Origin: Nitrosophilus kaiyonis
GTDB lineage: Bacteria; Campylobacterota; Campylobacteria; Campylobacterales; Nitratiruptoraceae
Length of the DNA stretch: 64,000 nt
Assembly: GCF_027943725.1 (NCBI RefSeq)
Contig: NZ_AP025696.1
Coordinates: forward strand, 1,403,501 to 1,467,500
Direction of reading: 5' to 3'
Shown here: one piece after another, positions 1,067 to 60,895 of the stretch
Layout of the letters: each line of letters opens with the position of its first letter
Numbering within the stretch: position 1 is the stretch's first letter
The notes under the pieces: model-generated
Seen by the model: only the letters and a program-made list of their open reading frames with translations
Told to the model about the DNA's origin: nothing
The model's database searches: none
Position numbers and translations under genes: made by a program

Positions 1067-1189
1067 TTTGGACATTTGGTTATTAGTATATTGGTTATTG
1101 GTATATTGGGGATTATGAATATTACTTTTACTAAATCCTAAATCTATTTCCTTACCTCCAATAACTAATAACCAATATACCAATTACCA
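1067..1189. repeat. Intergenic degenerate tandem repeat with inverted arms (copy 1)
   Basis: Fills the gap between rseP and pgsA. The left part is built of TTGGTTA, TTAGTATA and TTGGTATA units (7+8 base alternation). The right part (1156-1189) is the complementary type (CCAATAACTAATAACCAATA). The arms could pair as a long imperfect hairpin. Bases 1156-1189 match 55628-55661 at 33 of 34 positions by direct reading. Confidence 0.8.
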
Positions 1190-1198
1190 CTTTTAATT

Positions 1199-7469: not shown

Positions 7470-8867
7470 TTAAATCTTCTCCCAAAAGGTTCCCTGAGGT
7501 GTATCCATAATAGATATACCCATTTTTAAGAGTTTTTCTCTGATTAAATCTGCCTTTTCATAATTTTTCTCTTTTTTCGCTTTTGCTCTTTCTTCAATGA
7601 GTTTTTCTATCTCTTTTTTTCTGTTTTCATCGATTCCGATTTGGAAATATTCAAATGGGTTTTTATTCCCAACACCTAATAATTTATCGATAAAATCGAT
7701 ATTTGCTTTAACTGTTTTTTTATAATTTTTGTCTTTTGGATTTTTATCAAGATATTCATTTGCATTTGAGATAAATTCATCTATTACAGACAATGCTTTT
7801 GATATATTTAAATCATCATCTAAAGCTTCAAATAAAGATAACTTGAAACTATCATCTATTTCAGATTCATTTACATCAAAAACTCTTTTTTTAAGCCTAT
7901 AAAGTTTATCAAGTCTTTTTTTTGAATTTAAAAGATCCTCTTCATTAAAATTGAGTGAACTTCTATAATGAGTTGAAAGTAGATAAAATCTAAGTATCTC
8001 GCCATCATATACTTTTAAAGCATCTTTTATAAAAAAGCTGTTACCAAGACTTTTACTCATTTTTTCCCCACTAATGGTTACAAATCCATTATGCATCCAA
8101 TATTTTGCAAGTTTTTGATTATATGCACATCTTGTTTGAGCCGCTTCATTTTCATGATGTGGAAAAAATAGATCAGCACCACCTCCATGAATATCTATCT
8201 GATACTCTTCATCTTTATATGCAAGATATTTATAAATCATTGCTGAGCACTCTATATGCCAGCCTGGTCTTCCTCTTCCAAAAGGTGATTCAAAACATAT
8301 ATCCTCTTCATTTTTACACGCTTTCCATAATGCAAAATCTGCAGGGTTTCTTTTTTTTGGATTTGGCTCAATTCTACTTAAACCCTCTTCATCGCATTTA
8401 TGTGAAAGAGAGCAGTAATTTTTATCTTTTGATGTATCAAAATATATATCTCCATCATCTGTTCTATAAGCACACCCTTTTTCTAAAAGTCTTTCTATCA
8501 TATCAAACATTGCATCAAGACTTTGGGTCGCTTTTGGCTCAATATCTGCTCTTAAAACACCAAGAGCTTCCATATCTTCAAGATATCTTTTTATGTAATA
8601 TTGTGTAATCTCTTCTAAAGATTTCTCAGTTTCTTTAACTTTTTTTATAATTTTGTCATCAATATCTGTAAAATTTTTCATAAAGGTAACTTTATAACCT
8701 TTTAAAATAAGAAATCTTCTTAAAAGATCAAAAACTATTGAGCTTCTTGCATGACCTAAATGAGCATCATCATAAACAGTTGGACCACATACATAAATTC
8801 TAACTTCTTTGTCTTTTATAGGGATTAACTCTACCTCTTTTTTTAAAGAGCTATCAAATATACGCAT
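7470..8867 (-). CDS. cysS: Cysteinyl-tRNA synthetase
   Basis: Class I aminoacyl-tRNA synthetase of about 465 residues. Zinc-site and HIGH-like segments are visible as CGPTVYDDAHLGHARS, further zinc ligands in HIECSAM and HHENE, and the KMSKS loop as EKMSKSLGNSF. The ATG at 8867 follows an AAAGG box at a normal distance and lies inside the last codons of murJ, so the two are coupled. A TTG immediately upstream at 8870 is in frame but worse placed. Confidence 0.95.
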   Translation of the reverse strand: MRIFDSSLKKEVELIPIKDKEVRIYVCGPTVYDDAHLGHARSSIVFDLLRRFLILKGYKVTFMKNFTDIDDKIIKKVKETEKSLEEITQYYIKRYLEDMEALGVLRADIEPKATQSLDAMFDMIERLLEKGCAYRTDDGDIYFDTSKDKNYCSLSHKCDEEGLSRIEPNPKKRNPADFALWKACKNEEDICFESPFGRGRPGWHIECSAMIYKYLAYKDEEYQIDIHGGGADLFFPHHENEAAQTRCAYNQKLAKYWMHNGFVTISGEKMSKSLGNSFFIKDALKVYDGEILRFYLLSTHYRSSLNFNEEDLLNSKKRLDKLYRLKKRVFDVNESEIDDSFKLSLFEALDDDLNISKALSVIDEFISNANEYLDKNPKDKNYKKTVKANIDFIDKLLGVGNKNPFEYFQIGIDENRKKEIEKLIEERAKAKKEKNYEKADLIREKLLKMGISIMDTPQGTFWEKI

Positions 8868-11483: not shown

Positions 11484-11616
11484 TTTGGTTGAGTGGTTGA
11501 GTTGTTAAATAGATGAGTGGGTGAGTTGGCTATAAAACTACTTAACTAATTTAACTATTAAACCACTCAACAACTCAACTTTTTTAACCATTTTAACTAT
11601 TCTAATTTTTTTAACT
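11484..11616. repeat. Intergenic degenerate tandem repeat with inverted arms (copy 2)
   Basis: Occupies almost the whole ruvA-ddl gap. The left arm is 8-base units (AGTGGTTG, AGTTGTTA, AATAGATG, AGTGGGTG). The centre is AACCACTCAACAACTCAACT, complementary to the left arm. The right part is 9-base units (TTTAACCAT, TTTAACTAT, TCTAATTTT, TTTAACTAA). It ends just before the AAAGGAG of ddl. Confidence 0.78.
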
Positions 11617-15913: not shown

Positions 15914-17089
15914 TTAATAATATAGATGAGCTTCAACTCTTCTATTTTGTGCTCTTCCTTCTTCAGTAGAATTATCGGCAATTGGCATAGTTTCGCCATA
16001 GCCTTTGTAAGAGAGTCTATCTTTTTCAATTCCTAATTTTATAAGTTCATCATAAACAGCTTTTGCTCTTTTTTGAGATAATTTTAGGTTATATTCAAAT
16101 GAACCTTTACTATCTGTGTGGCCTTGAATCTCAGCTTTATATTTTTTATTTCTTTTTAGAAAATCAGCAAACTCTTTGATTTTCTTGAAATATTGAGGTT
16201 TTATTTTTGCACTATCAAAATCAAAATTTATTTTAAAATTAAATATTGCTGGACACCCATTTTTATCTACTTGAAACCCTTCAGGTGTATTTGGACATTT
16301 ATCTTTATAATCTGGGACTCCATCATTATCACTATCTAAACAGCATCCATTTTTATCAACTTTTACTCCAGATGGCGTATTTGGACATTTATCAAGATAG
16401 TCATATACTCCGTCTCCATCACTATCAGGCGGACATCCATCAGGATCAACAATTAGACCTTCAGGTGTATCTGGGCATTTATCATCAACATCTGGTACAC
16501 CATCATTATCACTATCTTTTGGAGCTTCTGTTTTAATAGGTTTAGGTTTTGGTGCTTCTTTGGTTTCATATCCAAAAGGTATTGATAATCCTGCTGAAAT
16601 AGCAAAATTATTTGCACTATTTTCAAAATCTCTAATATATTTTCCTTCTATAAGAAAATTGAGATATTCAGTTATTTTAGTCTTCCAACCAATACCTACT
16701 TGTGCAATTGTTCCACTTTCAAATTCATCTATTTCATCTTTAACATCTTGATATCCTAAACCAGCAATAATATATGGAGTATAACTTTTGTTTATGTTAA
16801 ATTGATAAAAAGCATTTAAAAAATATCTATTAATATCTGTATCATCTTTACTGCTTTTTTCATAATCAGCACCACTAAATCTTTGATAACCAAGTCCTGC
16901 AAGCCAATTATCGTCAATCCTATAATTTCCTCTTATACCAAACCCTTTTAATGAAGATTCTAAGTCTAAATCATTATCTGTATATTCAACATTTCCTAAT
17001 GCTTCTACCTCATATTTATTTGTATCAGCATAACTTCCAACGCTTAAAAAGCTTACAAGAGCAAGTGAAACTAATATTTTCTTTTTCAT
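15914..17089 (-). CDS. OmpA-family outer-membrane protein with thrombospondin type-3 repeats
   Basis: The ATG at 17089 is chosen, with AAAGGAG close upstream and a classical signal peptide (MKKKILVSLALVSFLSVGSYA). Residues about 22-185 have alternating aromatic strands typical of an 8-stranded barrel. Next come three calcium-binding type-3 repeats of the form DSDNDGVPDxxDKCPxTPxG. The C-terminal OmpA/Pal peptidoglycan-binding domain includes INFDFDSAKIKP, IQGHTDSKGS and NRRVEAHLYY. Total about 391 residues. It is probably an abundant cell-envelope anchor and porin-like protein. It is divergent from the hydrolase at 17194 and shares a 100-base promoter region. Confidence 0.93.
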   Translation of the reverse strand: MKKKILVSLALVSFLSVGSYADTNKYEVEALGNVEYTDNDLDLESSLKGFGIRGNYRIDDNWLAGLGYQRFSGADYEKSSKDDTDINRYFLNAFYQFNINKSYTPYIIAGLGYQDVKDEIDEFESGTIAQVGIGWKTKITEYLNFLIEGKYIRDFENSANNFAISAGLSIPFGYETKEAPKPKPIKTEAPKDSDNDGVPDVDDKCPDTPEGLIVDPDGCPPDSDGDGVYDYLDKCPNTPSGVKVDKNGCCLDSDNDGVPDYKDKCPNTPEGFQVDKNGCPAIFNFKINFDFDSAKIKPQYFKKIKEFADFLKRNKKYKAEIQGHTDSKGSFEYNLKLSQKRAKAVYDELIKLGIEKDRLSYKGYGETMPIADNSTEEGRAQNRRVEAHLYY

Positions 17090-17155
17090 GATTTCTCCTT
17101 TATTATTCAATTGTATCACAAATGTTTTTATATTTTGCAAATATTGCCAATATAT

Positions 17156-18183: not shown

Positions 18184-19614
18184 ATGGTAAAAATATTTCA
18201 TTTTATTGAGCATATAATATTTATTTTGTCACTTGGATACTATTTTATTTTAAATCTTCAATGGTATAACTATAAAATAGATAGAGTTTTATTACATCAT
18301 CACAGACCCTCTCAGCATATTTATCTTTTCTTATTGCCATTTTTTTTATATATAGCCTTTAGAGAGCTTTTTTTACCATTTTTATTAATTTATATTCTAT
18401 ATTTATATTTTTGGCAGAAAAAACTGGATAAAAAGTTGGTATTTACTGCAAGAGTAAAAAGATTTTTTTTAATTTTAGTATTTTTTGCATTTTTTATAGA
18501 TATTTTATGTATTGCAAAATTTAATTGTAAAATTTTTCCAACTCTACTTCCTTTGATTTTGGCTTTTATAGTTTCAAACTTAATAGAAAAATTTTTATTT
18601 ACTGCATATAAAAGCGAAGCTGCTAAAAAATTAAAAGAGATAGACCCTTCTATTATCGGAGTAACAGCAAGTTATGGAAAAACAAGTATAAAAAATTTTT
18701 TATTTCAAATATTATCTCAAAAATATAATACATATGCAACTCCAAGAAGTGTAAATACATTAGGAGGAATTATAAAAGATATCAATCAAGACCTTCCTAA
18801 AAACACTCAAATATACATAGTGGAAGCAGGAGCAAGAGAGAGAGGAGATATCTATGAGATAGCTTCATTTTTAAATCCTCAATATGTAGTTATAGGAAAA
18901 TTGGGACCTCAACATATTGAATATTTCAAAACTATGGAAAATATTATTGCAACAAAACTTGAGCTTTTGTCTTCAAATAGACTTAAAAAAGCATTTTTAT
19001 ATGATGAAATACCAGTAAAAGATAAAGAAAATTTTGTAAAGTTTGGGAAGAATATAAATAATTTAAAAAGTAGTCTTGATGGAATTAGTTTTGATTTAGA
19101 AATTGATAATAAACTCTACCATTTTGAAGCTCCTGTTCTTGGAGCATTTAATGCTATAAATATTACTGCTGCTATTATGGTTGCTTTGGAGTTTGGCTTT
19201 AGTATCGAAAATCTGCAAAAAATAGTAAAAAATTTAAAATCTGTAGAGCATAGGCTTCAAAAAATAGAGTCTAATGGTAAAATAATTATTGATGATAGTT
19301 TCAATGGAAATTTTGAGGGGATGATAAGCTCATATGAACTTGTAAAAAATTACCCAAAAAGAAAGGTAATTGTAACGCCAGGCATTGTTGAAAGTACAAA
19401 AGAGGCAAATGAAAAACTTGCAAGAAAAATTGATGAAGTTTTTGATTTAGTCATAATAACAGGAAAAATAAATAGAGAAATTTTGGATAAAAATATTAAT
19501 AGAGCTAAAAAAATAGTCTTAGAAGATAAATCAAAACTACAAGAAGTTTTAGCCCAAAACACAAAGCCTGGTGATTTGATACTTTTTAGCAACGATACGC
19601 CGGCATATTTGTAA
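18184..19614 (+). CDS. murF: UDP-N-acetylmuramoyl-tripeptide-D-alanyl-D-alanine ligase, with N-terminal membrane domain
   Basis: 476 residues. The first ~145 residues contain several hydrophobic helices (FIEHIIFILSLGYYFIL, HIYLFLLPFFLYIAF and others), not found in enterobacterial MurF but typical of the epsilonproteobacterial form. The Mur ligase ATP loop reads GVTASYGKTSIKN; the family's APRSVNTLGGI-like segment and the ADP-binding EHRLQKIESNGKIIIDDSF region (cited as EHRLQ and IIDDSFNGN) follow. It adds D-Ala-D-Ala (from ddl) to the muramoyl tripeptide. The membrane domain may place the step near MraY and MurJ (inference). Confidence 0.9.
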   Translation: MVKIFHFIEHIIFILSLGYYFILNLQWYNYKIDRVLLHHHRPSQHIYLFLLPFFLYIAFRELFLPFLLIYILYLYFWQKKLDKKLVFTARVKRFFLILVFFAFFIDILCIAKFNCKIFPTLLPLILAFIVSNLIEKFLFTAYKSEAAKKLKEIDPSIIGVTASYGKTSIKNFLFQILSQKYNTYATPRSVNTLGGIIKDINQDLPKNTQIYIVEAGARERGDIYEIASFLNPQYVVIGKLGPQHIEYFKTMENIIATKLELLSSNRLKKAFLYDEIPVKDKENFVKFGKNINNLKSSLDGISFDLEIDNKLYHFEAPVLGAFNAINITAAIMVALEFGFSIENLQKIVKNLKSVEHRLQKIESNGKIIIDDSFNGNFEGMISSYELVKNYPKRKVIVTPGIVESTKEANEKLARKIDEVFDLVIITGKINREILDKNINRAKKIVLEDKSKLQEVLAQNTKPGDLILFSNDTPAYL

Positions 19615-19620
19615 AATTTT

Positions 19621-19690
19621 GTTGAGTAGTTAAGTAGTTGAATAGTTGAGTTGTTTTCCACTCAACCAATTTAACCATTTTAACCAATAC
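19621..19690. repeat. Intergenic degenerate tandem repeat with inverted arms (copy 4)
   Basis: The left arm is four 8-base units: GTTGAGTA, GTTAAGTA, GTTGAATA, GTTGAGTT. The right part is 9-base units: AACCAATTT, AACCATTTT, AACCAATAC. The two parts are partly complementary. It lies between murF and the small membrane protein gene. Confidence 0.8.
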
Positions 19691-19711
19691 ATATCAAATT
19701 TAAGGATTATT

Positions 19712-19828
19712 TTGGAAGATATTAAAAATTTTTCAGTTGAATTTTTAGCAATAACTGTTTTAGTTTTTGTAATAGTAGGGTTGCAGAAGATATTTGAATA
19801 TATCTTAAAAAGGAAAAGAGGTGAATAG
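19712..19828 (+). CDS. Small single-pass membrane protein upstream of TRAP permease
   Basis: 38 residues from the TTG at 19712 (AAGGAT box 6-7 bases upstream): MEDIKNFSVEFLAITVLV..., one hydrophobic helix and a basic end (LKRKRGE). The frame is open further upstream to an ATG at 19646, but that part is read through the repeat block and has no ribosome binding site. Its stop overlaps the GTG start of the TRAP gene by 8 bases. It may be an accessory subunit of the transporter; no homologue is recognised. Confidence 0.55.
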   Translation: MEDIKNFSVEFLAITVLVFVIVGLQKIFEYILKRKRGE

Positions 19829-24464: not shown

Positions 24465-24773
24465 ATGAGTGTTTTAATGGAAATTGCAATGTTTCCAACC
24501 GATGTTGGCGAGAGTAAAAGCAGATATGTTGCTGAGGTTTTAAAAGTTATAAAAGATAGTGGATTTGAGTATCAATTAACCCCAATGGCTACAATAATAG
24601 AGGCTGATAATATTAAAGAGCTAACAGATTTAATTCCAAAAATGTATGAAGCATTAGAGAAGATGGGAGTAGGGCGAGTTTATAGTGTAGTAAAATTTGA
24701 TATAAGACCTGGAAAAAAAGATAGATTAAAACAAAAAGTTAAATCGGTTGAGAAAAGATTGAATATAGGTTAG
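24465..24773 (+). CDS. MTH1187/YkoF-type thiamine-binding family protein
   Basis: 102-residue cytoplasmic protein of the MTH1187 (DUF77) family. MEIAMFPTDVG at the N-terminus, the YQLTPMATIIEAD segment and VVKFDIRPGK are the usual landmarks. Family structures are ferredoxin-like and members have been suggested to bind thiamine or a related ligand; the role here is unproven. It stands alone: divergent from the aminotransferase and convergent with pdxA across a long repeat. Confidence 0.87.
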   Translation: MSVLMEIAMFPTDVGESKSRYVAEVLKVIKDSGFEYQLTPMATIIEADNIKELTDLIPKMYEALEKMGVGRVYSVVKFDIRPGKKDRLKQKVKSVEKRLNIG

Positions 24774-24923
24774 TAAGGTGAGTATGATGAGTGTGGTGAA
24801 TAGGAAGATAAGGGAGTAAAGTGATAAGGTAGTAAGGTGGTAAAAGGGGAGGGGAGTGAAGAGGTCAATTTCAAATTTTAAATTACTAATGACCAATTAC
24901 TAATTACTAATGACTAATGACTA
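24774..24923. repeat. Compound 9-base and 7-base tandem repeat between convergent genes (copy 5)
   Basis: 24781-24861 is purine-rich 9-base units (AGTATGATG, AGTGTGGTG, AATAGGAAG, ATAAGGGAG, ...). 24882-24923 is exact 7-base units: TTACTAA, TGACCAA, TTACTAA, TTACTAA, TGACTAA, TGACTAT, ending at the pdxA stop. The reverse complement of 24864-24892 matches 63117-63145 except for two central bases and the last one. Confidence 0.85.
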
Positions 24924-33187: not shown

Positions 33188-34823
33188 AAAGAGTAAAATT
33201 ATAGCAACTGTTTCTGCTATATTAATCATATCTATTTTGATTTTTGCTTCTATTAGAGATAGAGCGCAGTTAATTGATTATAGTACATATGAAACGTTGC
33301 TAAAAAATGATCTCATTGATAGTGCAAAGATTGATAAAGAGTATATCTATATTTTGAGTGCAGGAAAAAAATATAAAATTCCAAAAGAGACAATTAATCT
33401 TAGTGAACTTTATAAAAAAACTACTGTTACAGTAAAAGAGGATTATTCATATCTATATGATATTATACTTTTAATTATAGTTGCTGGATTTTTTGGATAT
33501 CTTATTTTTTATACAAAAAAATCAAAAGAACAAACAACAATAAAACATCAAATAAATATTGCTCAGCCAGAAATTGATGAATTTTCTACAAAAATAAAAC
33601 CAATAATCAGTGATGTAAGATTTAAAGATGTTGCTGGAATCGAAGATGTTAAAGAAGAGCTAGAAGAGATAATCGAGTTTTTAAAAAATCCAAAAAAATT
33701 TATTGATTTTGGTGTTAGACTTCCAAAAGGTGTTTTATTAGTTGGACCCCCAGGGGTTGGTAAAACTTTAATTGCAAAAGCTGTAGCAGGAGAGGCTGGA
33801 GTTCCATTTTTTTATCAAAGTGGTAGTGCTTTTGTTCAGATATATGTGGGAATGGGGGCAAAAAGAGTTAGAGAGCTTTTTGCAAAAGCAAAACAGATGG
33901 CGCCATCTATAATATTTATAGATGAGATTGATGCTGTTGGAAAAGCAAGAGGCGGAATGAGAAATGATGAAAGAGAAGCAACTCTCAATCAGCTTCTTAC
34001 AGAAATGGATGGATTTGAAGATTCAAGTGGTGTTATAGTTATGGCTGCAACAAATAAGATAGAGATGCTTGATGAGGCACTTTTAAGGCCTGGAAGGTTT
34101 GATAGAAGAATTTTTGTATCTTTACCTAATGCTAAAGAGAGAAAAGAGATTTTAAAGGTTTATTTAAAAAAGGTTCCACATTTTGTTGATTTAGAAAAAC
34201 TATCAAAAATGACAGTTGGATTTAGCGGGGCTGCACTTTCAAGTCTAGTTAATGAAGCTGCTTTGCATGCACTTAGAAAAGGTAAAAAAATTGTTGAGTT
34301 AAAGGATTTTGAAGAGGTAAGAGATAAAGTTTTATATGGCAAAAAAAGGGTTCTTGCATATAGTGAAAATGAAAAAGAGGTACAAGCAACATATCAAGCA
34401 GCTAAAACACTTTGTGCATATTGGTATGAGATAGATTTTGAAAAAGTAAATATTCTTGGTGGTGGTTTTAAAGATATTGATAAAGAGATAGTGTCAAAGC
34501 ATGAATATCTTGCTAAGATAAAGCTTTATCTTTCAGGTTATGCTGCAATGGAGCTTTTTTATAATGAAGAGTTTTCAAATTGTGCATTTGATTTAAGCAA
34601 GGCAAAACAGATAGCTGAAGAGATGGTTGTAAAATATGCTATGGGAGAAAAAATAGTTGGTGATATTGGCGATGTATCAATAATTTTAGACTCTTCTTTA
34701 AAAGAGGTAAAAGAGTTTTTATCTAAACAAAAAAATAAAATAGAAAAAATTAGAGATTTTTTAATAGAAAATGAGTCAATTGCTTATGAAGAGGTCAAAA
34801 ATATAGTAAATGAAGTATTTTAG
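33174..34823 (+). CDS. FtsH-like AAA+ ATPase with degenerate (protease-dead) M41 domain
   Basis: About 550 residues from the TTG at 33174, chosen because AAGAGGG lies 5 bases upstream; ATGs at 33144 and 33150 are in frame but lie deeper in mtaB. Two N-terminal membrane helices flank a small periplasmic domain. The AAA+ module has Walker A GPPGVGKT, pore-loop region FVQIYVGMG, Walker B IIFIDEIDAVG and SRH LLRPGRFDRR. Where FtsH has the zinc motif HEAGH, this protein reads YQAAK (ATYQAAKTLCAY), so both histidines and the catalytic glutamate are gone; the later Asp-containing AFDLSKAKQIAEEM remains. It probably acts as an unfoldase or scaffold. The position after mtaB matches H. pylori HP0286 as I recall it. 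Confidence 0.86.
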   Translation: MQISKKSKIIATVSAILIISILIFASIRDRAQLIDYSTYETLLKNDLIDSAKIDKEYIYILSAGKKYKIPKETINLSELYKKTTVTVKEDYSYLYDIILLIIVAGFFGYLIFYTKKSKEQTTIKHQINIAQPEIDEFSTKIKPIISDVRFKDVAGIEDVKEELEEIIEFLKNPKKFIDFGVRLPKGVLLVGPPGVGKTLIAKAVAGEAGVPFFYQSGSAFVQIYVGMGAKRVRELFAKAKQMAPSIIFIDEIDAVGKARGGMRNDEREATLNQLLTEMDGFEDSSGVIVMAATNKIEMLDEALLRPGRFDRRIFVSLPNAKERKEILKVYLKKVPHFVDLEKLSKMTVGFSGAALSSLVNEAALHALRKGKKIVELKDFEEVRDKVLYGKKRVLAYSENEKEVQATYQAAKTLCAYWYEIDFEKVNILGGGFKDIDKEIVSKHEYLAKIKLYLSGYAAMELFYNEEFSNCAFDLSKAKQIAEEMVVKYAMGEKIVGDIGDVSIILDSSLKEVKEFLSKQKNKIEKIRDFLIENESIAYEEVKNIVNEVF

Positions 34824-35316
34824 TGGTTTTGGTTTTAAAGATGAGATTGAAATATTTTCCTTTTTAAAAAAAAGCGAATTTTTAGTTGCTGGATTTAGTT
34901 ATGGTGCAATAAGAGCTTTTGAATATGTTTATAAAGAAAATTCAAGAGTTGATAAGCTTATTTTAATATCTCCAGCTTTTTTTCAAGATAGAGATGAAAA
35001 ATTTAAAAAGCTACAACTAATTTTTTTTAAAAAAGATCCTAAAAAATATTTTGAAAATTTTTATGAAAATGTAATATTTCCTTCAAACATATATATTGAA
35101 AAATATAAAAAAGATGATAGTTTTGAAAACTTAAAAGAACTTTTATATTATAAATGGAATCAAGATAAATTAAATGAGCTTATAAAAAGAGGAATAAAAA
35201 TAGAAGTTTATCTTGGTGAGAAAGATAAAATAATAAATTCAAATTTAGCATATGATTTTTTTAAAAGTTTTGCAACTGTATACTTTATAAAAAATGTTGG
35301 ACATCTGTTGGTTTAG
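34810..35316 (+). CDS. bioV: Pimeloyl-ACP methyl ester esterase BioV (alpha/beta hydrolase)
   Basis: 168 residues, short for a hydrolase. The N-terminus MKYFSGFGFKDE, nucleophile elbow AGFSYGA, acid in LGEKDKI and terminal histidine in VGHLL form a minimal triad typical of the Campylobacterota BioV group. BioV removes the methyl group that shields malonyl-ACP during pimelate synthesis for biotin. It overlaps the FtsH-like gene by 14 bases. The assignment rests on length, N-terminal motif and lineage; another small esterase is possible. No other biotin gene is in the window. Confidence 0.72.
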   Translation: MKYFSGFGFKDEIEIFSFLKKSEFLVAGFSYGAIRAFEYVYKENSRVDKLILISPAFFQDRDEKFKKLQLIFFKKDPKKYFENFYENVIFPSNIYIEKYKKDDSFENLKELLYYKWNQDKLNELIKRGIKIEVYLGEKDKIINSNLAYDFFKSFATVYFIKNVGHLLV

Positions 35317-35327
35317 ATACGAGAGTG

Positions 35328-35410
35328 GCTATTGGTATATTGGTTATTAGTTATTGGTAAAAAGTTAGATATCTAATATACCAATACACCAATAACCAAT
35401 ATACTAATTC
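35328..35410. repeat. Dispersed inverted-arm repeat (copy 6), homologous to 59503-59575
   Basis: TTGGTATA, TTGGTTA, TTAGTTA units, then an AAAAAGTTAGATATC centre, then ACCAATAACCAATA units, able to fold as a hairpin. Bases 35328-35400 match the reverse complement of 59503-59575 at 66 of 73 positions, and all seven differences are transitions. Confidence 0.85.
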
Positions 35411-35425
35411 ACAAAAAGGATATGG

Positions 35426-35959
35426 ATGGATAAAATTAAAATAGGTGTAGTTACTGCAAGTGATAGAGCAAGTGCTGGTATATATGAAGATATAAGCGGA
35501 AAAGCCATAATGGATACTATGAAAGATTATTTAAAAAATGAGTTTGAAATATTTTATAGATGTATTCCAGATGAGCAAAAAGAGATTGAAAATGCTTTAA
35601 TTGAGTTATGTGATAAAGAAAATTGTGCTTTAGTTGTAACAACTGGAGGAACAGGGCCTGCAAAAAGAGATGTAACTCCAGAGGCAACTGAGGCCGTTTG
35701 TGAGAAAATTTTGCCAGGATTTGGTGAACTTATGAGACAAGTTAGTTTAAAATATGTACCAACAGCAATTTTATCAAGACAGACTGCAGGTATTAGAGGA
35801 AATTCTTTGATTATAAATCTGCCTGGAAAGCCAAAATCTATAAGAGAGTGTTTAGATGCAGTTTTTCCAGCTGTTCCATATTGTATAGATTTAATTGGTG
35901 GACCTTATATTGAAACAAATGAAGAGGTTATAAAGGCTTTTAGACCAAAAAATAAATAG
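35426..35959 (+). CDS. mog: Molybdopterin adenylyltransferase
   Basis: 177-residue MogA/MoaB-type protein that adenylates molybdopterin before molybdenum insertion. IGVVTASDRASAGIYEDISG, the MPT-binding VVTTGGTGPAKRDVTPEAT (cited as TTGGTGPAKRDVTPEA), SRQTAGIRGNSLIINLPGKP and the AVPYCIDLIGG C-terminus are all present. AAAAAGGA precedes the ATG. A repeat precedes and follows the gene, suggesting it is a separate unit. Needed by molybdo/tungsto-enzymes such as nitrate reductase or formate dehydrogenase, not encoded here. Confidence 0.95.
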   Translation: MDKIKIGVVTASDRASAGIYEDISGKAIMDTMKDYLKNEFEIFYRCIPDEQKEIENALIELCDKENCALVVTTGGTGPAKRDVTPEATEAVCEKILPGFGELMRQVSLKYVPTAILSRQTAGIRGNSLIINLPGKPKSIRECLDAVFPAVPYCIDLIGGPYIETNEEVIKAFRPKNK

Positions 35960-35998
35960 AGTTATTGGTATATTGGTTATTGGTGTATTAGTAATTTA
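35959..35998. repeat. Short copy of the TTATTGG repeat after mog (copy 7)
   Basis: Two 15-base units (TTATTGGTATATTGG, TTATTGGTGTATTAG), single-armed, immediately after the mog stop. Confidence 0.75.
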
Positions 35999-36031
35999 GA
36001 ATAAACAAAAGATATAAATAAAGAGAAAAAA

Positions 36032-43078: not shown

Positions 43079-43268
43079 TTAAGTGTTAAGTATATAGTGG
43101 ATTAGTGGAATAGGGGTAAGGAGATTAGGTAGGTGGTTGAGTGGTTTTATTCTATTACTATTCAACGATTTTAACCTTTTTAACCACTCAACCAAATTTT
43201 CAATTCCTAATTCCCAATACACCCAAATACCAATCACTAATTCCAATTCCTAATGTCCAATGTCATTA
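43079..43268. repeat. Long compound tandem/inverted repeat between valS and helicase (copy 8)
   Basis: Fills most of the 291-base divergent gap. The left part (AGTGGATTAGTGGAATAGGGG) resembles 59464 onward. The centre has GTGGTTGAGTGG facing AACCACTCAACCA, an inverted pair of the 11484 type. The right part is 7-base units (CAATTCC, TAATTCC, CAATCAC, TAATGTC, CAATGTC). CTAATGTCCAA at 43250-43260 is the reverse complement of the 11-mer TTGGACATTAG found exactly at 55533 and 63106. The rest of the gap (42994-43078) should hold the valS promoter; no confident box is called. Confidence 0.8.
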
Positions 43269-55531: not shown

Positions 55532-55662
55532 ATTGGACATTAGTGTTAAGTATTAAGAGCTAAGTTTTAAGTTTTTAATAATCATCAAACTCTAAGTCCT
55601 CTTACTCATTTAACTATTAAATCATAACTCCAATAACTAATAACCAATATACTAATTACCAT
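55532..55662. repeat. Intergenic heptad repeat between hslU and era (copy 9)
   Basis: TTGGACA, TTAGTGT, TAAGTAT, TAAGAGC, TAAGTTT, TAAGTTT in 7-base register from 55533. The right end (55628-55661) is the CCAATAACTAATAACC type and matches 1156-1189 at 33 of 34 bases. The repeat abuts the hslU stop codon. Confidence 0.85.
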
Positions 55663-56994
55663 TTAAAGTATATACCTTGCAGTATCTTCATTTTTAATAA
55701 TATTGTCAAGTTTTTTATGAACATACTCTTCAGTTATAGTTATTGTTTCACCTTTATGCTCATCTGCTTCAAAGCTTATATCTTCAAGAAGATTTTCAAT
55801 AACTGTATGAAGTCTTCTTGCTCCAATATCTTCCATCTTTTGATTTGCTTGATGAGCAATTTTTGCTATTGCTCTTAGAGCGCTATCTTCAAAAACTAGT
55901 TCAACTCCCTCTACACTTAAAAGAGCCTCATACTGTTTAATTAAAGAGTTTTTTGTTAAGGTTAAAATTTTATATAGTGCTTCTTCATCTAAAGAGTCAA
56001 GTTCTACTCTTAGAGGAAATCTACCTTGCAGTTCCGGTATTAAATCACTTGGTTTGCTAAGATGAAAAGCTCCAGCTGCTATAAATAAAATATGATCAGT
56101 TTTGACAGTTCCCCATTTTGTTGAAACACTACTTCCCTCAACTATTGGCAAAAGATCTCTTTGAACTCCCTCTTTGCTTGGATCTTGTCTGCCTTGAGAG
56201 CTTGAGCTAACTGCAATTTTATCTATTTCATCAATAAATATAATTCCCTCATTTTCAGCTTTTTTCAAAGCTTCTAATTTTATCTGCTCCATATCAAGAA
56301 GTTTTTCACTTGCTTCAGTTTTTAAAATTTCTTTTGCTTCTTTTACAGTAACTTCTTTTTTTATTGCCTCTTTGCTAAGTCCTATTGTAAATATTTTAGC
56401 AATTGATTCTTGAGCCTTTGCAATTTCTGGAGGCAGATTTGTATCTTCTAAATTGAAAGCTGTTTTTGGGATCTCAATTTCAATTTTCAAATCATCAAGT
56501 TCGCCATTTAATAGCTTTTCTTTCATTTTTTCATAACTTTTTTCATACTCTTCTTTTTTTGATTCACTTGCCATTTTTGGAAGTGGTGGAAGTAATTTTT
56601 CAAGTATTTTTTTATTTATATAATCCTCAATCAACTCTTTATTTTTCTCTTTATGCTTTTCTTTAACAAGAATCAAAGAGGCAGCTACTAAATCTCTAAC
56701 CATAGATTCAACATCTCTACCAACAAAACCAACTTCGGTATATTTACTTGCTTCAACTTTTACAAAAGGCAAATCAAAAGATTTAGCAAGTCTTCTTGCA
56801 ATTTCAGTTTTACCAACTCCAGTTGAGCCAATCATTAATATATTTTTTGGCATTATTTCATCTTGAATTTCAGGTGGTAGTTGCATTCTTCTATATCTAT
56901 TTCTAAGTGCAATTGCTATAGTTTTTTTAGCCTCTTTTTGTCCTATTACATATTCATCTAAATATTTTACTATCTGTTTTGGTGTTAGATTCAT
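55663..56994 (-). CDS. hslU: ATP-dependent protease ATPase subunit HslU
   Basis: Hexameric AAA+ unfoldase feeding the HslV chamber. About 443 residues from the ATG at 56994 ([18 protein letters not shown]), with GGAGG close upstream; a longer in-frame ATG lies inside hslV. Walker A GSTGVGKTEIARRL, an I-domain insertion (about 105-240), Walker B GIIFIDEIDKIA, and the C-terminal tail ENEDTARYIL-type end (NEDTARYIL) needed to activate HslV. Its start shares one base with the hslV stop (TGATG). Confidence 0.96.
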   Translation of the reverse strand: MNLTPKQIVKYLDEYVIGQKEAKKTIAIALRNRYRRMQLPPEIQDEIMPKNILMIGSTGVGKTEIARRLAKSFDLPFVKVEASKYTEVGFVGRDVESMVRDLVAASLILVKEKHKEKNKELIEDYINKKILEKLLPPLPKMASESKKEEYEKSYEKMKEKLLNGELDDLKIEIEIPKTAFNLEDTNLPPEIAKAQESIAKIFTIGLSKEAIKKEVTVKEAKEILKTEASEKLLDMEQIKLEALKKAENEGIIFIDEIDKIAVSSSSQGRQDPSKEGVQRDLLPIVEGSSVSTKWGTVKTDHILFIAAGAFHLSKPSDLIPELQGRFPLRVELDSLDEEALYKILTLTKNSLIKQYEALLSVEGVELVFEDSALRAIAKIAHQANQKMEDIGARRLHTVIENLLEDISFEADEHKGETITITEEYVHKKLDNIIKNEDTARYIL

Positions 56995-57996: not shown

Positions 57997-58086
57997 TAGT
58001 TAGATAGTTAGATAGTAAAAAAGTTAGAAAGCATTTTCTTAATCAATTTTTTCTCTCTCACTTTCTAACTTTCTTACTCACCTAAA
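57997..58086. repeat. Period-8 repeat with complementary arm before rplI (copy 10)
   Basis: TAGTTAGA, TAGTTAGA, TAGTAAAA, AAGTTAGA in 8-base steps; then the complement type TTTCTAAC, TTTCTTAC, TCACCTAA at 58060-58086. It fills the gap between the FTR-rhodanese gene and rplI. Confidence 0.8.
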
Positions 58087-58871: not shown

Positions 58872-59471
58872 ATGGGAAGATTTTTAAAAAAGATATTTAG
58901 ATATTTATGGCTTGGAACATTATCAATTTTACCACTTATTATAGTTTTGCAAATCTTTTTTTGGCTGCAAAAAATTCTTATTAACTATTTTCATAAAGCT
59001 TTTGCTATTTCAGAAGGCAATTATATTTTAATAATTTCTATATTCCTTTCAATATTTATATTTTTAATAATTGTTGGTTATTCGATAGAAAAATATGGAA
59101 AATCTATCTTTATTTCTTTTATAGATAGGATAATGCAAAATATTCCTCTATTGAAAACTATTTATAATTTTGTAAAAGATTTTTTAAAAATGGTCTTTGT
59201 AACAAAAGAATCAGAAGTTTTTAGAGATGTTGTGTTAGTTCCTTTTCCAAATTCTGACCTAAAATCAGTTGGTTTTGTTACTAATAAAATTGATGAAGAA
59301 AATTATATTGTTTTTGTACCAACTTGCCCAAACCCAACATCAGGTTTTACATTTATAGTTAAAAAAGATGATATAAAATTTTTAAATATAGGTATTGATG
59401 AAGCTATGAAAATGATTGTGTCAGTTGGAGCAGTAGCAGAAGATAATCTTAAAAAAGATTTAAGTGGATAA
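58872..59471 (+). CDS. DUF502 family membrane protein
   Basis: 199 residues. Two N-terminal membrane helices (LGTLSILPLIIVLQIFFWL and IISIFLSIFIFLIIVGY) then a soluble domain with family landmarks SFIDRIMQNIPLLKTIYNFVKD (cited as MQNIPLLKTIYNFVKDFL), FPNSDLKSVGFVT and FVPTCPNPTSGF. AAAGG precedes the ATG. The family is widespread and uncharacterised. It converges with argG across a repeat. Confidence 0.9.
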   Translation: MGRFLKKIFRYLWLGTLSILPLIIVLQIFFWLQKILINYFHKAFAISEGNYILIISIFLSIFIFLIIVGYSIEKYGKSIFISFIDRIMQNIPLLKTIYNFVKDFLKMVFVTKESEVFRDVVLVPFPNSDLKSVGFVTNKIDEENYIVFVPTCPNPTSGFTFIVKKDDIKFLNIGIDEAMKMIVSVGAVAEDNLKKDLSG

Positions 59472-59575
59472 GTGGAATAGGGGAGTAAGGTTGTTATTGA
59501 TAATTGGCTATTGGTGTATTGATATATTAGATGTTTAACTTTTTACTAATAACCAATAACCAATATACCAATAAC
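59463..59575. repeat. Dispersed inverted-arm repeat (copy 11), reverse-orientation homologue of 35328-35400
   Basis: The left part TAAGTGGATAAGTGGAATAG resembles 43094 onward. Bases 59503-59575 are the reverse complement, at 66 of 73 positions, of 35328-35400. It lies between the convergent DUF502 and argG genes and touches the argG stop. Confidence 0.85.
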
Positions 59576-60792
59576 TATTTTTTCCTCACATGTCCTTCTA
59601 TTATAAATCTTAATGCATTAAGTTTTATAAAGCCTTGAGCATCTTTTTGGTTATATACTGTATCTTCTTCAAAAGTACTAAATTCTGGAGCAAAAAGTGA
59701 ATTTGGAGATTTTCTTCCAACAACGAAAACATTTCCTTTATGAAGTTTAAGTCTTACAGTCCCATTTACATTTGTTTGAGTTTTATCTATAGCTGCTTGT
59801 AGCATCTCTCTTTCAGGCGAAAACCAAAATCCATTATAAATTAGCTCAGCATATTTTGGCATCAATTTATCTTTCATATGAGCCTCTTCACGATCAAGTG
59901 TAATAGATTCCATTGCTCTATGAGCTTTTAGTAAAATTGTTCCACCTGGTGTTTCATAACAGCCTCTACTTTTCATTCCAACAAATCTATTTTCAACAAT
60001 GTCTATTCTTCCAATTCCATGTCTATTTCCATATTCGTTTAGTTTTGCAAGTAGTGATGCAGGAGATAATGCTTCACTGTTTATTGCAACTGGATCTCCT
60101 TTTTCAAACTCTATCTCTATATATTCTGGCTCATTAGGTGCCTCTTGGATTGAATTTGTCCATCTCCACATATCCTCTTCTGGTTCATTCCAAGGATCTT
60201 CTAAAATTCCACCTTCATAAGAGATATGAAGTAGATTTGCATCCATAGAGTAAGGACTCTTTTTACCATGTTTTTCAATAGGAATGTTATGTTCTTGTGC
60301 AAATTTTAAAAGCTTTTCTCGTGAATTTAGATCCCATTCTCTCCATGGAGCTATTATTTTGATATCTGGATTTAGTGCTAAATATCCTATTTCAAATCTA
60401 ACCTGGTCATTTCCTTTTCCAGTAGCTCCATGTGCAACAGCATCGGCTCCAACTTTTTTTGCAATTTCAATCTGTCTTTTAGCTATAAGAGGTCTAGCAA
60501 TACTTGTTCCAAGAAGATATTCTCCTTCATAAATTGTATTTGCTCTAAACATAGGAAATACATAATCTTTTACAAACTCCTCTTTTAAATCTTCAATAAA
60601 AATATTTTCAGGTTTTATTCCAAGTTTTAATGCTTTTTCTCTTGCTGGTTCTACCTCTTCTCCTTGTCCAATATCAGCAGTAAATGTTACAACTTCGCAG
60701 TTATAAGTATCTTGAAGCCATTTTAGTATAATAGAAGTATCAAGTCCTCCACTATATGCTAAAACAACTTTTTTCACCTCTTTTTTACTCAT
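59575..60792 (-). CDS. argG: Argininosuccinate synthase
   Basis: Joins citrulline and aspartate with ATP in arginine synthesis. About 405 residues from the ATG at 60792 ([20 protein letters not shown]), with AAGGGA well placed; an ATG 13 codons earlier is unlikely. The PP-loop [43 protein letters not shown] (cited as [14 protein letters not shown]) and the tetramer-tail region [17 protein letters not shown] are intact. It is divergent from rsmD. Confidence 0.96.
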
Positions 60793-60895
60793 TTTATCCC
60801 TTTTTTGAAAAATTTTTTGAATTTTATCCAAAAATTGTTTATGATAAAATAATGTTTAGAGATTCCCTATATAAAGTGAAATAAAGGAAAATAGA

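Follow-up and report, generated by a model that had tools for sequence, protein, structure and literature searches.

Dispersed intercistronic repeats of tandem 7-8-base words in Nitrosophilus kaiyonis, probably copied into gene junctions

Degenerate heptamers arranged in tandem between genes, in many copies, are known from the STRR sequences of heterocystous cyanobacteria; they are not known to have a hairpin architecture or an outer-to-inner order of words. The TAACTGA repeats of Beggiatoaceae, Cyanobacteria and Bacteroidetes are tandem heptamers that lie in intergenic positions, in operons, just upstream of start codons (MacGregor 2015, PMC4679880). They carry stop codons, are patchy across phyla and are almost all direct (with one indirect set) repeats of one invariant heptamer; their author raised the possibility of mobility and found no mechanism (PMC4679880). 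REP elements are 20-40 bp long and bear a tag, GTAG or CGTC; a RAYT is often present (PMC3733652, PMC2817692, PMC3116915).

The element described here belongs to the known class of dispersed intergenic palindromic or tandem repeats. It was followed from a stretch of 64,000 nucleotides of the Nitrosophilus kaiyonis genome, called the window below, in which a 73-mer at 35328-35400 is probably one copy of a dispersed intercistronic repeat. Ready-made elements would have been copied into gene junctions and then altered by slippage and exchange, persisting as tolerated transcribed spacers. Our best reading is that these are REP/STRR-like mobile intercistronic repeats; no known enzyme able to copy them turned up.

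The matching pair in the window

The 73-mer is held by an insert of ~102 nt (35311..35412, + strand) that begins after 'ggacatctgttg' and stops before 'aaaaaggatatgg', its right arm running on to ~35409. Upstream lies bioV, for pimelyl-ACP methyl ester esterase (34810..35316, +; NCBIfam NF033854, 221 bits), the last codons of which are changed by the insert, which supplies a new stop codon. An epsilon-type dUTPase was also matched in the same profile search as bioV, and both matches agree with an origin in Campylobacterota. The downstream neighbour is a moaB-like gene for molybdopterin adenylyltransferase (35426..35959, +; NF006932, 297 bits), and the ribosome-binding stretch AAAGGAT is retained at the junction despite the insert. 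A second copy of the family (59490..59575, - strand) is located between a convergent gene at 58872-59471 and argG, for argininosuccinate synthase (59575..60831, -; NF001770, 668 bits). A single-arm copy (GTTATTGGTATATTGGTTATTGGTGTATTAGT; 35961..36003, +) is missing from relatives.

The first-pass annotation had aligned 35328-35400 with the reverse complement of 59503-59575, and this ungapped alignment was reproduced exactly, with 66 of 73 identities and seven mismatches (C/T, A/G, G/A, G/A, T/C, C/T and A/G) that are transitions only, as described. An independent repeat search returned arms at 35330-35400 and 59503-59573 with a 92% match. Each copy is an inverted repeat built of ATTRGT units that folds, and the loop AAAAAGTTARAYATCTAATAT is common to both. 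When ATTRGT units and the observed spacers were assembled randomly in the same arm-loop-arm layout (5000 trials), the mean was 40.2 (sd 5.5) and the maximum 61 of 73, so that unit shuffling, which the annotation had named as a possible refutation, failed to reproduce the similarity of the pair. Copying and not independent slippage therefore explains the match, as had been claimed; since the observed identity exceeds the simulated maximum and the loop is shared, both 73-mers are copies of one sequence. The restriction to transitions holds for the pair and not for the family. In an alignment of 18 copies, transitions and transversions numbered 14 and 9 in the left arm and 25 and 20 in the right arm, transversions and one-base spacer changes being common across the family, and the left arm and AAAAA were conserved.

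These data bear on a reading in which the repeats were born locally, with 7-8-base units multiplied by slippage where a small hairpin exists, one arm copied onto the other by template switching, and no copying between loci. The units are tandem and degenerate, as such a birth would have them, and across 65 elements an arm matches its partner at the same locus better than it matches arms elsewhere (z -5.2), a result expected from copying of whole arm-loop-arm elements or from local building of arms by template switching. Within the TATTGG subfamily, however, an element's own two arms pair no better than arms swapped between copies, loops and spacers are common to distant loci in the 18-copy alignment, and random unit assemblies never reach the observed identity. 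We consider local birth doubtful.

Placement in the genome and possible RNA roles

The description of a dispersed non-coding element was borne out. A search of the 1,769,550-base genome with the 73-mer gave 88 HSPs at E<=1, in ~40 or more places, and a relaxed unit pattern gave 92 matches versus 6 for the reversed control. Far-apart copies are up to 97% identical. In a 264-kb sample made up of the window and ten 20-kb stretches, six of the ten taking in places where copies had been located before, the ORFs hold none of 76 tandem unit pairs, though 92% of the sample is coding. Among 59 element places, six of which are rRNA regions with unreliable ORF or gene calls, 50 are tandem, 6 convergent and 3 divergent gene junctions, and divergent junctions are depleted of elements (about p=0.005). 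In each of the three rRNA operons, the 16S-23S spacer has the same 108-base element between a tRNA and the 23S gene (L031 1464-1571, L033 1520-1627 and L035 1497-1604), a sign of homogenisation among operons. Of 26 tandem cases counted by hand, 21 have the family oriented in the direction of transcription (p=0.0025), a bias in which gene strand is confounded with, and not separable from, chromosome half. The stop codon of the upstream gene is often supplied by the insert, as the TAG of ATTAG or GTTTAG, with the last few codons altered (L009 / L161 10468-10500; L160 2030-2060; window 35311-35316).

The annotation had further proposed that the changes between copies would often keep G:U pairs in an RNA hairpin. 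This was unsupported, the variable pairs giving 8 G-U versus 7 A-C outcomes, and RNAalifold with a covariation check on 18 copies gave 12 pairs, of which none had a compensatory change. The lack of covariation within the subfamily leaves the RNA-hairpin argument unsupported. A search for terminator-like sites at 35200-35600 returned none, and the longest T-run 3' of the right arm in the 18 copies was only 1-4. In 11 copy-holding loci, the only Rfam matches at gathering score were to rRNA and tRNA. An intrinsic terminator was rejected, given the lack of a T-tract and the position of elements in rRNA spacers.

A selected RNA role is possible. That the elements are intercistronic hairpins kept as terminators, processing sites or mRNA stabilisers would agree with their position after gene ends, with their long stems and the 21:5 orientation bias, and with the three different hairpins that three species carry at the convergent argG site. 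It is nevertheless improbable: besides the missing T-tract and terminator call, elements sit in each of the three rRNA operons, after a tRNA and before the 23S gene, and in many tandem junctions, places where termination would be harmful, and the arms have neither compensatory changes nor, in the subfamily, co-variation.

Word vocabularies and their order

The elements, ~45 to 250 nt long and with ends that vary, follow one plan: the 5' arm is C-free and made of tandem 7-8-base words (consensus AATTGGTATATTGGTTATTAGTTATTGGTAAAAA), a short loop follows, and the 3' arm, looser and G-free, has the complementary words. The words are degenerate, with 7- and 8-base spacing and inverted arms, and TRF gave periods of 7, 8 and 15 at the elements. 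For either strand, a long hairpin of A-T, G-C and G-T pairs is predicted.

The TATTGGT family forms part of a larger system that has several vocabularies. In the 264-kb sample, in part chosen for known copies, a C-poor and then a G-poor arm is found in 35 of 107 sizeable gene gaps, about a third, and the reverse order in none, versus ~3 of each in shuffled gaps. The window, whose choice was independent of this arm-order score, by itself gives counts of 12 to 1 when the threshold is lowered slightly and 7 to 0 when it is raised. The score is noisy in the GC-rich relatives G024 and G045, where reversed cases also occur. G045 (GC 55%; L175-L179) has the same AT-rich TATTGG words along with GAGTGAGG-type arrays, sometimes in C-first order.

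Within the window, a composite copy (1079..1192, -) has TATTRGT arms at 1079-1121 and 1153-1192 that flank other words, and a composite element (55541..55662, -) has GTTAAG-type words inside and a TATTRG arm outside at 55625-55664; the latter site is empty or holds other words in relatives. Elements of like architecture are built of other vocabularies: TGGTTGAG / AACCACTCAAC words at 11486..11605, GTTGAGTA words at 19621..19700, G/A-rich repeats followed by CTAATGAC-type repeats at 24767..24923, TTGAGTGG words at 43094..43264, and GTTAGATA / CTTTCTAAC words at 57997..58078. The TTGAGTGG vocabulary was assigned to three of them (11486-11605, 19621-19700 and 43094-43264). The window also contains, unrelated to the element, three 90-base repeats (16251-16517) within a minus-strand ORF (15914-17140), which likely encode repeated Asp-rich units of 30 residues.

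From outside to inside, the words are ordered as CATTRG, TATTRG, GGAATT, GTTAAG or GTTGAG types, and GATAGTGG. CATTRG lies outside TATTRG in a ratio of 21:3 and outside GGAATT in one of 21:1, further pairs giving 17:3 and 7:0; the order of TATTRG and GGAATT is weaker (19:10). Such a fixed order speaks against insertions having nested at random and independently.

Relatives, other taxa and described repeats

Empty-site alleles, which the annotation had proposed to look for in relatives, are present in the same genus; with these and the further copies, its other refuting condition fails as well. The bioV gene and the moaB-like gene are 2-16 nt apart in four same-genus genomes (G001-G004) and in one same-family genome (G005), and the ~102-nt insert is missing from all of these. 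No target-site duplication is visible at this site. In G004, the same-genus genome nearest in base composition, 31 junctions could be compared, 13 of which are scored as elements here, and 11 of these 13 sites are empty. The other two had an occupied score but, when inspected, proved to be a tRNA region and a conserved stretch and not elements. The summed gap length over the 31 junctions is 3842 nt here versus 1551 nt in G004, and at several G004 junctions the genes abut or overlap where an element separates them here. Further empty or near-empty sites were found in G003. Insertion in this lineage is well supported by these alignments of orthologous junctions; deletion of the element in all relatives, while possible, is less simple.

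At other sites G003 has the same architecture, in 6 of 17 orthologous element sites but in none of the 14 other junctions (p=0.017), although the words differ: GTTGAGTA here versus TATTGG in G003 at 19614-19820, TTGAGTGG versus GTGTGGGT at 43 kb (where G004 is empty), and TATTAG versus GGAATTTGG at C1:1363144. The same architecture with other words points to junction hotspots or to words rewritten in place, and these occupied sites fit in-place rewriting or a hotspot as well as they fit a new insertion. Different words at the same site also count in favour of the local birth considered above. At the convergent argG junction (59475-59575), four species (this one, G002, G003 and G005) carry four different hairpins, of the TATTGG, TTTGGTATATTGG, TCGGTAAATCGG and AGCCGGC types. 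The hairpins of G002 and G003 at this site are shorter than the copy here, and the junction suggests rapid replacement at one place.

From the empty sites and the copy number we infer mobility, and to that extent the suggestion of a possibly mobile element stands; neither an enzyme, a target-site duplication nor an excision was seen to go with it. No sharp, conserved element end was found, and the length range of 45-250 nt is unusual for a transposon. Movement by a RAYT (Y1) transposase, as of a REP/REPIN family, would account for short palindromic dispersed repeats that are found at co-directional and convergent junctions and are rare at divergent ones, as for REPs (PMC3733652). Y1_Tnp (PF01797), which is present in 22 of 60 relatives, has no match in the own genome or in the copy-carrying G002 and G003; the elements are longer and made of tandem 7-8-base words, and of 18 copies only 4 have a GTAG tag near the left end and none has CGTC there, all of which makes this reading very unlikely. 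The reverse transcriptase profile RVT_1 (PF00078) gave no match in the own genome or G002, and an element copied by reverse transcriptase (retron, group II intron) was rejected on that ground.

In the preferred reading, a ready-made element would be copied into a new gene junction, by an enzyme that would be neither a Y1 (RAYT-type) transposase nor a reverse transcriptase encoded by the genome itself. Afterwards the copies would drift apart as the 7-8-base unit slips and words are exchanged among them. An insertion would persist only if placed between a stop codon, often a TAG or TAA word brought in by the element, and the ribosome-binding site that follows; there the element would be transcribed within operons and be mostly tolerated rather than needed.

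The 73-mer was found in 7 of 60 genomes, the own genome being among these rows, and in three genera, several same-genus and same-family genomes being negative. Among other GTDB genomes, 55 stretches contain an exact 21-mer (ATTGGTATATTGGTTATTRGT); their records include Campylobacterota, Chloroflexota, Bacteroidota, Desulfohalobiaceae, Nitrospirae and Peregrinibacteria. A genome often has several such occurrences, and an inverted partner arm often lies opposite. Spread within one genome can hardly account for such a distribution. A repeat of the TAACTGA/STRR kind that is passed horizontally, spread by a mobile agent or kept by a repeat-binding protein, would explain the exact 21-mer in Campylobacterota and other phyla and the patchy presence among relatives, and is compatible with copying into junctions. 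We regard it as rather unlikely: no vector was seen, a plasmid search gave no match, and the single match to the 21-mer among viral contigs (L195, IMGVR_UViG_3300026382_000088, ~7880-7975), which might speak for a carrier, falls on a phage-like contig in what reads as an open frame coding for an N- and Q-rich stretch. The words may also serve as a protein-coding low-complexity linker. A literature search for the words themselves returned no relevant paper.

We tentatively propose that several phyla share undescribed intercistronic word hairpins, with C-free and then G-free arms of 7-8-base words in fixed layers, copied into junctions and rewritten in place by a machinery that is neither RAYT nor reverse transcriptase. 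Were this correct, a third of the sizeable gaps between genes in this genome would be occupied by a repeat system that has driven apart genes which once abutted or overlapped, with a vocabulary common to several phyla and without a known enzyme. The clean insertion alleles between sister species would make the origin and movement of heptamer-built repeats of the TAACTGA and STRR types directly testable.

Of the traits of classical MITEs, a target-site duplication was not visible at the one bioV/moaB-like site, and element ends vary. Like REP, BIME and REPIN sequences, the elements are palindromic, dispersed, placed after gene ends, away from divergent promoters, and many are presumably transcribed; unlike them, they are 45-250 nt long with longer stems, and have no conserved tag and no RAYT. 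With the STRR sequences they share heptamers that are degenerate and tandem, in many intergenic copies. The nearest published case that we found is that of the TAACTGA repeats, with which they have in common tandem heptamer words, intergenic positions in operons just upstream of start codons, stop codons, a patchy occurrence in phyla and possible mobility. Instead of direct repeats of a nearly invariant heptamer, the elements of N. kaiyonis have degenerate 7-8-base words in inverted-repeat hairpins, with several vocabularies and a layered order.
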